From Archangium violaceum (GTDB lineage: Bacteria; Myxococcota; Myxococcia; Myxococcales; Myxococcaceae), in assembly GCF_016887565.1 (NCBI RefSeq), contig NZ_CP069396.1:12630001-12694000 (forward strand): DNA of 64,000 nt, written 5' to 3'. This document shows positions 3,479 through 5,811 of this stretch, piece by piece. Under the pieces are notes generated by a model. The model was not told the DNA's origin. It saw only the letters and a list, made by a program, of their open reading frames with translations, and ran no database searches. The translations under genes and the position numbers were made by a program. Positions within the stretch are counted from its first letter, which is position 1. The number at the start of each line of letters is the position of its first letter.

Positions 3479-3536
3479 CCCCTCTCCCTTCGGGAGAGGG
3501 ACGGGGTGAGGGTACCAGGGCCCCGGGTTGAACCCT
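3479..3536. repeat. Dispersed palindromic intergenic repeat, copy 2 (long form)
   Basis: CCCTCTCCC-ttc-GGGAGAGGG, then ACGGGGTGAGGGTACC, then AGGGCCCCGGGTTGAACCC. It is nearly identical over about 55 bases to the reverse complement of the copy at 12710-12768. It sits between convergent alr and the Cys-rich protein gene, and the stop codon of the latter (3537-3535) lies at its edge. Confidence 0.85.
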
Positions 3537-4674
3537 ACCGTTGCATATCCGGGCTGCACCCGAACACAGACATATCCTCGGTGACGGTGGAGCAAACCCA
3601 GCCAGGGCCACAGGAATTCAAGTCACCGGGGTCGCACTTGCGAAAGCAGGTGCTGACGGTGGGACTGCCCACGCCGCAGACATTGTCCGAGGGGCAGCTG
3701 TCGGAGCGGAGCGGGTTGCAGACGCGAGCGCACCAGAAGACAGCGTGGCCGCGGGACATGCGCATATTGCAGCGCTCGCCCTCGGCGCACGGGTTCTCGC
3801 GACAATCCCCCTGGGAGTCCACGAGACATTGATACCGACCCTCCGGAATACGGGTGCAGCGCTGCCCCTGGGGACAGCCGAGGCTCTGACAGTCCGGCGC
3901 GCACCCCGGGCCGTTGAGACTGTCGGTACAAACGAAGCCCGAGGCACACTGTACGGAGCCATCGAGTGAACAGGGAGCGGAGCACACCTGGTTCACACAG
4001 CGCAGCCCCTCGCGACAGGAGCTGGCGGGCGAGACGGGAAGAGAGTCACACGGCTCACCCTCGCGGCGCTGGCCCTCGGGAGTACAGCGGCGGATGACGG
4101 CCCCAGTGGCGCCCGTGGTCACGGGGCGGCACACCGAGCCGGGGAAACAGTGCGAGTCCTCCTCGCACTCGGAGGCCAGGCATTCGAAGCGGCGCGTCTC
4201 GCGGTTGGCGACACAGCCCTGACCGGCCGGACAGTCCCCGTCGACACGGCAGCTGCCACAGTCGAGCCCTTCCGCCGTGCGCCGACAGCGCATCGCGGCG
4301 GCTGGGAGCCCATCACGTGCGCGCTCCTCGGAGACCGAAGGGAGAATCGAGACGGGAGGAGGGTCGGAGGAGGCCTGGGGCTCGGGCTCGGGAGCAGGCT
4401 CGCTCCGTAATACCGGCCGGGAGTGGGCCCAGGGGACGGCGGCGACGATGCGCGAGGCGGAGGAGGCGGCGAAGCTGGCATCGACGACGGAGGCGCCACC
4501 GGGGAGGGCGCGATACCGGGGACGTTCGCGGGGGTCCTCGGGGGATGGAGGGAAGAGCCCCTGGAGAAACGGAGCGGGTGAAGCAGTGGCGAGCTGCCAG
4601 CAGACGAATACCGCCACACCGACCAGGGTCACCTTGAACGCGACCCGCCTCGAGCGTGTCGGCTCACCCCACAT
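3535..4674 (-). CDS. Membrane-anchored or secreted cysteine-rich protein
   Basis: This 379-residue protein has one hydrophobic segment near residues 12-33 (VAFKVTLVGVAVFVCWQLA), acting as signal or anchor, then a Pro-rich low-complexity linker to about residue 125. The C-terminal 250 residues hold many short repeats such as CRVDGDCPAGQGC, CEEDSHCFPGSVC, CAEGERCNM and CPSDNVC, about 12 residues between cysteine pairs. This resembles the disulfide-rich Dickkopf/EGF-like modules common in myxobacterial secreted proteins. No catalytic residues are visible; binding or adhesion is possible but unproven. The two genes upstream on the same strand also encode exported proteins. The stop codon lies inside repeat copy 2. 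Confidence 0.7.
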   Translation of the reverse strand: MWGEPTRSRRVAFKVTLVGVAVFVCWQLATASPAPFLQGLFPPSPEDPRERPRYRALPGGASVVDASFAASSASRIVAAVPWAHSRPVLRSEPAPEPEPQASSDPPPVSILPSVSEERARDGLPAAAMRCRRTAEGLDCGSCRVDGDCPAGQGCVANRETRRFECLASECEEDSHCFPGSVCRPVTTGATGAVIRRCTPEGQRREGEPCDSLPVSPASSCREGLRCVNQVCSAPCSLDGSVQCASGFVCTDSLNGPGCAPDCQSLGCPQGQRCTRIPEGRYQCLVDSQGDCRENPCAEGERCNMRMSRGHAVFWCARVCNPLRSDSCPSDNVCGVGSPTVSTCFRKCDPGDLNSCGPGWVCSTVTEDMSVFGCSPDMQR

Positions 4675-4814
4675 GTCCTGCGCCTCTCATGTCATCCCCT
4701 CCGTGACGGCCATTGCATTCACGGTGCGCCAGGCCCCCGGGGGCCCTCCTCCCTCATTGTCGAGGGAGGAGTGACGCGGTTTCCGTACCAGACTTCACAT
4801 CCGTACCGGGTCCG

Positions 4815-4988
4815 TCAGCAAGCGTAGGTCGAGCAGCACATGAGGTAGCCACCGTCCTCCGCGCAGCCGCAGGGAAGGCAGTTCCAGCACTCCCTGCCGG
4901 TAGCATAGGCGACTCCGCCCCCGATAGAGGCGGCGACAGCAATGGCCAGCAGCCAACGACGCACGTGGGACTTCTTGTTCATTTTCAT
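4815..4988 (-). CDS. Small secreted cysteine-rich peptide, 57 aa
   Basis: The frame starts MKMNKKSHVRRWLLAIAVAA and has a textbook signal peptide: a basic N-end, a hydrophobic core and an Ala-Tyr-Ala cleavage site near residue 29. The mature part is about 28 residues with seven cysteines in the order C-X2-C-X2-C-X-C-X8-CC-X4-C. A perfect AAGGAGG lies 5 bases before the ATG, strong support for a real gene. It follows the DUF2381 gene by 40 bases on the same strand, and a gene for a larger Cys-rich exported protein follows 140 bases downstream. Function is unknown; metal binding, a disulfide-stabilised peptide or an envelope component are all possible. The odd number of cysteines suggests a free thiol or a dimer. 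Confidence 0.72.
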   Translation of the reverse strand: MKMNKKSHVRRWLLAIAVAASIGGGVAYATGRECWNCLPCGCAEDGGYLMCCSTYAC

Positions 4989-5028
4989 GACGTCCTCCTT
5001 CGGGCTCACCACTGCGGAACGACACCCC

Positions 5029-5811
5029 TCAGAGCGCGACGCCCTCGGCTGCGCGCGGCTGCAACTCGAATCGGGCCGCCCCATCGCTCGGCAGGGCCCG
5101 GGTGACGACGACGAGCCACCCCCACCCTCCGGGCGGGAGCGACACGGGCCCCATGCGGAGGGCCAGCACCTCCACCTCCTCCCCTCCCTCCGCATGCCGC
5201 ACCCGCACATCGCCGGGCTCCCAGCGCCGCAGCGGGTCCGGGTTGTGCACCCTCACCACGAAGCCGGACAGTCCTCCGGCATGGAACAGCCGCCGCTCCC
5301 CCTCGAACCCCGCCCGCGTCCGCGCGAGCTGCTCGGCCCACACCTCGGACACCAGTGACGCCACCTCGCGTGCGTCCGGAGCCGGAGACGGGGTCCGCAC
5401 GGACCTGGAGACACGCACCTGAACATCCACCTCGGAGGAGCTGGGAGCGAGGACGAAGGGCACCTCGGTCCCATCCGAGAGGACGACCTTCAAGGGCACC
5501 CGCTCGCCGTGGGGAAGCGCCTCACGGGGAGTGACGACGAGGAAGCCATTGCCCACCAGCAGGGGCTCGAAGTGTCCATGCCCGTCGTCCTCCAGGCGGG
5601 TGCGCACCGCGTCGAGCGCGGTGTCGAAACGGAGTCGCGTCGCCGTCCTGGCGGCCACGCGTACCTCCTCGGTTCCACCCGACACCGTCACGGCCCGGAG
5701 CCTCGGCTTCTTCGCCTCCGGCTGCGCCGCTTCCACCGCCCCCACCGCGGAGAGACACATGGCCAGGACGGGCATGACGCGGAGAGTCATCCCGGCGTGT
5801 CCTGACCTCAT
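5029..5811 (-). CDS. DUF2381 / TIGR02268 family exported protein
   Basis: The 260-residue protein resembles the myxobacterial paralogous family TIGR02268 (DUF2381). It has a signal peptide (MTLRVMPVLAMCLSAVGAVEA) and opening strands like RAVTVSGGTEEVRVAARTATRLRFDTAL. A later domain reads FVVRVHNPDPLRRWEPGDVRV, which matches the family pattern in which a hydrophobic strand is followed by a W-P-G-x-x-R/V turn. The middle coiled-coil of longer members is mostly missing, so it is a short member. Start could be GTG-free ATG 5811 or ATG 5790; the latter gives the cleaner signal peptide. The family role is unknown, though such genes often sit beside Ser/Thr kinase genes. It precedes the 57-aa peptide gene by 40 bases. 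Confidence 0.75.
   Translation of the reverse strand: MRSGHAGMTLRVMPVLAMCLSAVGAVEAAQPEAKKPRLRAVTVSGGTEEVRVAARTATRLRFDTALDAVRTRLEDDGHGHFEPLLVGNGFLVVTPREALPHGERVPLKVVLSDGTEVPFVLAPSSSEVDVQVRVSRSVRTPSPAPDAREVASLVSEVWAEQLARTRAGFEGERRLFHAGGLSGFVVRVHNPDPLRRWEPGDVRVRHAEGGEEVEVLALRMGPVSLPPGGWGWLVVVTRALPSDGAARFELQPRAAEGVAL

Follow-up and report, generated by a model that had tools for sequence, protein, structure and literature searches.

A near-constant partner gene for a cysteine-rich small peptide gene suggests a two-part cell-envelope system in predatory myxobacteria

Within the 13.2-Mb genome of Archangium violaceum, a 64,000-nucleotide stretch (the window) carries a small gene for a cysteine-rich peptide with an export signal, termed A', followed by a gene for a larger cysteine-rich protein, termed B'. 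Together, the two genes are best read as a two-part cell-envelope system of predatory myxobacteria that was previously undescribed. Conservation of the peptide, its pairing with B' and the joint loss of two of its cysteines are the main evidence. The features of the locus are as follows.

3535 to 4674, minus strand: partner gene B', 379 aa, with an N-terminal hydrophobic helix, a low-complexity linker and a cysteine-rich domain
3538 to 4314, minus strand: 34-cysteine domain of B', its 34 cysteine columns aligned in the partners
4675 to 4814, minus strand: A'-B' spacer of 140 bases, with a predicted stem-loop (arms 4746-4755 and 4762-4771)
4815 to 4988, minus strand: peptide gene A', 57 codons plus stop, supported by homologue, profile and substitution evidence
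4818 to 4901, minus strand: predicted mature part of A', 28 residues with seven cysteines, if cut after A-Y-A
4902 to 4988, minus strand: predicted signal peptide of A', residues 1-29, by inspection (charged start, RRW, hydrophobic stretch, A-Y-A)
4994 to 5000, minus strand: ribosome-binding site AAGGAGG, the ATG 5 bases downstream
5029 to 5811, minus strand: DUF2381 gene just upstream of A' (PF09544, 108.5 bits against a cut-off of 29.2)

The minus-strand translation of 4815-4988 is MKMNKKSHVRRWLLAIAVAASIGGGVAYATGRECWNCLPCGCAEDGGYLMCCSTYAC (57 aa), in which the seven cysteines of the mature part follow the order C-X2-C-X2-C-X-C-X8-CC-X4-C. The preliminary description had reported this reading frame, the cysteine order, an Ala-X-Ala motif, a 28-residue mature part and the ribosome-binding site, all of which were found, as were the two neighbours it named, a DUF2381 gene and a gene for a larger cysteine-rich protein, one at each side of A'. 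All three genes run in a single direction. It is close to certain that A' is a real gene. A profile built from 30 sequences retrieves 31 true copies from 26 of the 96 genomes of the GTDB family, which argues that A' is no chance open reading frame. Moreover, among 127 ATG open reading frames of similar size in the window, only one has at least seven cysteines in its last 30 residues, and 60 trinucleotide-block shuffles of the window gave a mean of 0.017 such frames. In close pairs, dN is well below dS: 0.07 and 0.27, respectively, for the window copy and locus L040, whose mature parts differ by seven synonymous changes and one non-synonymous change, and nine synonymous and no non-synonymous changes separate loci L053 and L054. 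On these homologues, profile matches, substitution patterns and shuffles, a spurious frame was rejected. A lack of homologues with conserved cysteines in related genomes had been named beforehand as grounds for abandoning the peptide; the search for them was run, and such homologues were found.

The peptide appears to be restricted to its family. Across the 195 phylum genomes searched, the profile matched nothing outside the GTDB family. An initial scan of genome contigs with one protein found nothing. When the 96 family genomes were searched with the protein, 34 matches came up at E<=0.01; by eye, 30 were accepted as true and four rejected as false (G090, G030, G015 and the second of G037, all left out); the profile gave 33, two of them marginal (G017 and G087, E 0.002-0.003) and also left out. 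One paralogue, with 57% identity, is present in the window's genome, and related loci include those of Archangium violaceum Cb vi76, A. lansinium, an Archangium MAG and Hyalangium versicolor. The copies are 53-58 residues long and share a common start position, mostly preceded by a G-rich site, which in Archangium-type loci is a GGAGG-type site at the equivalent position; the mature core is kept across genera. Searches of Pfam, NCBIfam and PDB sequences gave no family match to A'. Sub-threshold Pfam and NCBIfam matches of individual members (best E 0.00082, CU044_5270; 4 of 30 members) were regarded as signal-peptide or chance matches and were dropped. Furthermore, no paper on this peptide or pair was found, as far as the open-licence literature shows.

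By inspection, A' has the charged start, hydrophobic stretch and A-X-A motif of a Sec-exported protein, and A-X-A stands at the expected position in 30 of the 31 copies, the exception being L068. The preliminary description had called the peptide secreted; the signal-peptide features point to export, and release from the cell is at most predicted from them. No lipobox is present in A', in which the residues up to the first cysteine are AYATGREC, or, by eye, in any of the 31 copies. Export by the TAT route was rejected because the twin arginine varies in relatives (LRW, CRW, HW, YW), and the sole NCBIfam TAT match was sub-threshold (E 0.015). As for a RiPP precursor, no modification enzyme was found among the seven other window proteins scanned, and only B' is common to genera.

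The principal result concerns the partner. The preliminary description had seen the larger cysteine-rich neighbour but had missed its constancy: a B' homologue is the next same-strand gene in 28 of the 29 loci retrieved for other A' copies and, with the window and L092 added, lies directly downstream in 30 of 31 copies. The single A' copy without B' is L055. Conversely, 30 of the best 35 B' matches have A' upstream. The five without a recognised A' are G000 12997227, G080 C733, G031 C3, G041 C68 189370 and G080 C131; upstream of B' in G031 C3 lies only a C-terminal remnant of the peptide, G041 C68 189370 stands second in a tandem, and because G080 C131 sits at a contig edge, B' copies without peptide number four or five. 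A broken B' in two frames, around which the peptide was not found, was also observed in the window's genome (L090, G000:C1:1083130-1084078). The two proteins are co-inherited: their distances correlate with a Mantel r of 0.85 for whole A', 0.87 for the mature part and 0.69 for the signal, values reached by none of 2000 permutations, with shared ancestry contributing to the correlation. One genome holds the two most divergent cassettes, L051 and L092, and in each of them the peptide and B' match in type. The B' domain keeps every one of its 34 cysteines in all of the 29 partners aligned. It is likely that A' functions with B', and from gene order the two are presumably co-transcribed.

Two other accounts of the pairing can be considered. 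In the first, A' would be a disulfide-rich bacteriocin or predation peptide from which B' protects the producer. Toxin/immunity genes of this kind would suit the two-gene units, the varied contexts, the patchy spread (26 of 96 genomes) and the B' copies without peptide, one with a remnant, but the mature core is kept rather than diversified across genera with dN below dS, the cysteine-invariant domain is unlike a polymorphic immunity protein, and PADLOC gave no match; the account is accordingly improbable. In the second, A' would act alone outside the cell and B' would merely be co-transcribed, as the copy in L055 might suggest. Retention of B' in all other copies while the remaining neighbours change makes this a poor prospect.

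Those remaining neighbours vary by genus. Archangium-type loci have DUF2381, alanine racemase and lipase genes, some Hyalangium-type loci have regulators and traA, and others are found elsewhere. DUF2381 lies upstream of A' in 6 of 30 loci examined, all of them Archangium-type; at L042 (G002), the match to DUF2381 is spread over two overlapping frames, suggesting a frameshift. The gap between A' and B' is about 140 bases in most Archangium-type loci, and elsewhere B' opens near, or overlaps, the peptide stop. The spacer stem-loop has no Rfam match; compensatory changes occur at 4 of 29 predicted pairs across seven Archangium-type loci (including L040-L044 and L046), and the covariation energy term is slightly positive, so that covariation favours the structure weakly. 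By eye, a strong GGAGGGG site stands ahead of a mini-ORF of 8 or 9 codons that spans the start of B', both in the window (about 4665-4700, minus strand) and in L040-L043 and L046, an arrangement that would suit translational coupling of B'. The ATG of that mini-ORF is in frame with B' in L044.

The cysteines of A' point to disulfides. Seven are present in 25 of the 31 copies, five in four copies and six in two, giving an odd number in 29. Every five-cysteine form (L063, L067, L068 and L092) lacks both C37 and C52, and an AU test on the B' tree rejects these four as a single clade (p 0.0011). C37 and C52 were thus probably lost jointly, in two parallel events. L063 is a long branch in the B' tree. 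Because C37 and C52 disappear together, a disulfide between them is indicated, in keeping with the pairwise gain and loss of cysteines in disulfide peptides, whereas C42 was lost singly in two other copies. These are the six-cysteine forms L042 and L055, the latter being the copy without B'; since both lack C42, this residue is the one most likely to be unpaired. The number of cysteines in the B' domain is even, so the odd cysteine of A' has no balancing extra cysteine there, and it may be free, dimerising or binding something else. In eight copies (g19), CC stands at 36/37 and C34 is absent. Like disulfide-rich secreted peptides in general, A' has a signal peptide, a short mature part and cysteines lost pairwise; unlike them, it has an odd cysteine number, a fixed partner gene and no family match.

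The preliminary description had offered disulfide-rich or metal-binding as alternatives, and the first of these gains support from the C37/C52 co-loss. A different use of the cysteines would be redox chemistry: a CWxC peptide might shuffle disulfides as the 34-cysteine B' folds. The near-constant, very cysteine-rich partner, the odd cysteine number and the CWxC present in most copies fit such a folding helper; against it, CxxC is gone from the four five-cysteine forms and rearranged in the eight g19 copies, and distant B proteins, described below, fold beside a different small protein, all of which renders the idea unlikely. Metallothionein-like metal binding, to which the dense cysteines and C-X2-C-X2-C-X-C spacing might point, went unsupported and is very unlikely, as paired C37/C52 loss and an export signal fit disulfides better and no metal genes lie among the scanned window neighbours of A'.

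The two-gene envelope system can be set out as a mechanism, which as a whole is judged to have an even chance of being correct. A' would be exported by Sec and cut at A-Y-A; after oxidation in the periplasm it would be a mini-protein of about 28 residues stapled by disulfides, one of them probably C37-C52, and C42 would be its least needed cysteine. B' would be held by its N-terminal hydrophobic helix and would present the 34-cysteine domain, with up to 17 disulfides, on a flexible linker. A' would then belong to an envelope complex, as the small subunit or ligand dedicated to B', and the complex would most likely act in surface recognition or adhesion; the role is the weakest step of the scheme. 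Structure models are of limited help. AlphaFold models of both proteins, from alignments of only five sequences, were poor: for A' the pLDDT was 55, and for B' the mean pLDDT was 60, with a helix at 9-29, a disordered linker at 29-126 and then small beta-hairpins. At E<=0.001, Foldseek returned no match (best 3.7e-3, prob 0.11), VIA-align gave none at Z>=5 and PDB sequence searches returned nothing significant, so no fold was assigned. A Dickkopf_N match of B' was discounted (14.5 bits against a 25-bit cut-off).

B' belongs to a larger set of proteins. Matches to B at E<=1e-15 occur in 53 of the 195 phylum genomes, all within the GTDB family of A', and the window's genome has 13 B-type matches, two being pieces of one broken gene. 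Distant B genes were examined in seven genomes, 15 in all, and 13 of them are directly preceded by a gene for a small protein, including all eight in the window's genome. In most cases the small protein is a lipoprotein whose lipobox has CP and which carries four further cysteines; one of the 13 is without an in-frame lipobox. Like the A'-B' cassette, these pairs place a small exported cysteine-bearing protein directly upstream of a membrane-anchored cysteine-rich protein, and the B domains are homologous. Unlike it, they have a lipoprotein as the small partner, 32 rather than 34 domain cysteines (save in one split copy) and a shorter pre-domain stretch. No homology between the small lipoprotein and A' was detectable (hhalign probability 7.4%), so what they have in common is position, their ancestry being unproven. 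By eye, a lipoprotein with MRWLLL and SCWEEHC before a 34-cysteine B is possibly an intermediate (L095, G013:C113). The libraries searched gave no family name for the distant pairs. Distant B genes adjoin mostly unrelated genes (10 neighbours scanned), so this context yields no function; in the window's genome, a second DUF2381 gene adjoins one distant B cassette (L097, 1670-2536, minus strand).

A further comparison is with TraA/TraB, the outer-membrane exchange receptor system of myxobacteria. PMC3325183 gives the cysteine repeats of TraA, which form its stalk, as TIGR04201, and PMC6372800 describes TraB as having OmpA and TSP_3 domains. As with TraA/TraB, the A'-B' cassette is a two-gene unit encoding an exported cysteine-rich protein with weakly similar cysteine repeats, and some cassettes adjoin traAB. 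In a scan with the TraA model NF033759, traA was found within 35 kb of 8 of the 31 A' copies, at 0.8, 1.7 and 3.1 kb in G039, G040 and G041 and at 30-34 kb in G000 (second copy), G002, G031, G032 and G033. The chance expectation, worked out for 12 genomes, is about 0.1 copies within 40 kb of traA, but shared gene order accounts for much of the linkage, which may thus amount to perhaps two independent facts rather than eight. This proximity, together with the weak repeat similarity, is what hints at a role in recognition. The gene that follows traA in L049 encodes OmpA and TSP_3 domains and was identified as traB. Several small helix-turn-helix regulator genes accompany the cassettes beside traA in L045, L049 and L050. 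The differences are equally clear: the window's A' copy is 1.75 Mb from traA round the circle, and traAB has no counterpart of A'. Across nine B or B' proteins, TIGR04201 (Myxo_Cys_RPT) reached at best 21.7 bits, below its 25-bit cut-off, and NF033759 matched none, although it did match the neighbouring TraA fragment of L045. For L074, TIGR04201 scored 14.4 bits. Likewise, the window's B' had no match to TIGR04201 at E<=1 or, in NCBIfam at E<=1, to a MYXO-CTERM sorting tag.

Taken further, the A'-B' and lipoprotein-B pairs might form one modular surface recognition system of the Myxococcaceae, each unit consisting of a small cognate disulfide ligand and a cysteine-rich receptor rod, with about ten units in the window's genome; the system would exist alongside TraA/TraB kin recognition and, in some genera, would adjoin it on the chromosome; this extension is speculative and rather doubtful. 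What began as a lone small open reading frame is now one half of a two-gene unit whose partner is fixed and which can be tested; roughly a quarter of the family genomes searched have it and, judging by the distant B proteins, the window's genome may hold about ten units of this kind. Even if the pair is not a ligand and its receptor, a 34-cysteine domain that has lost no cysteine over several genera makes B' an unusual protein. If it is, social, predatory bacteria, for which few molecular recognition systems are known, would gain another.
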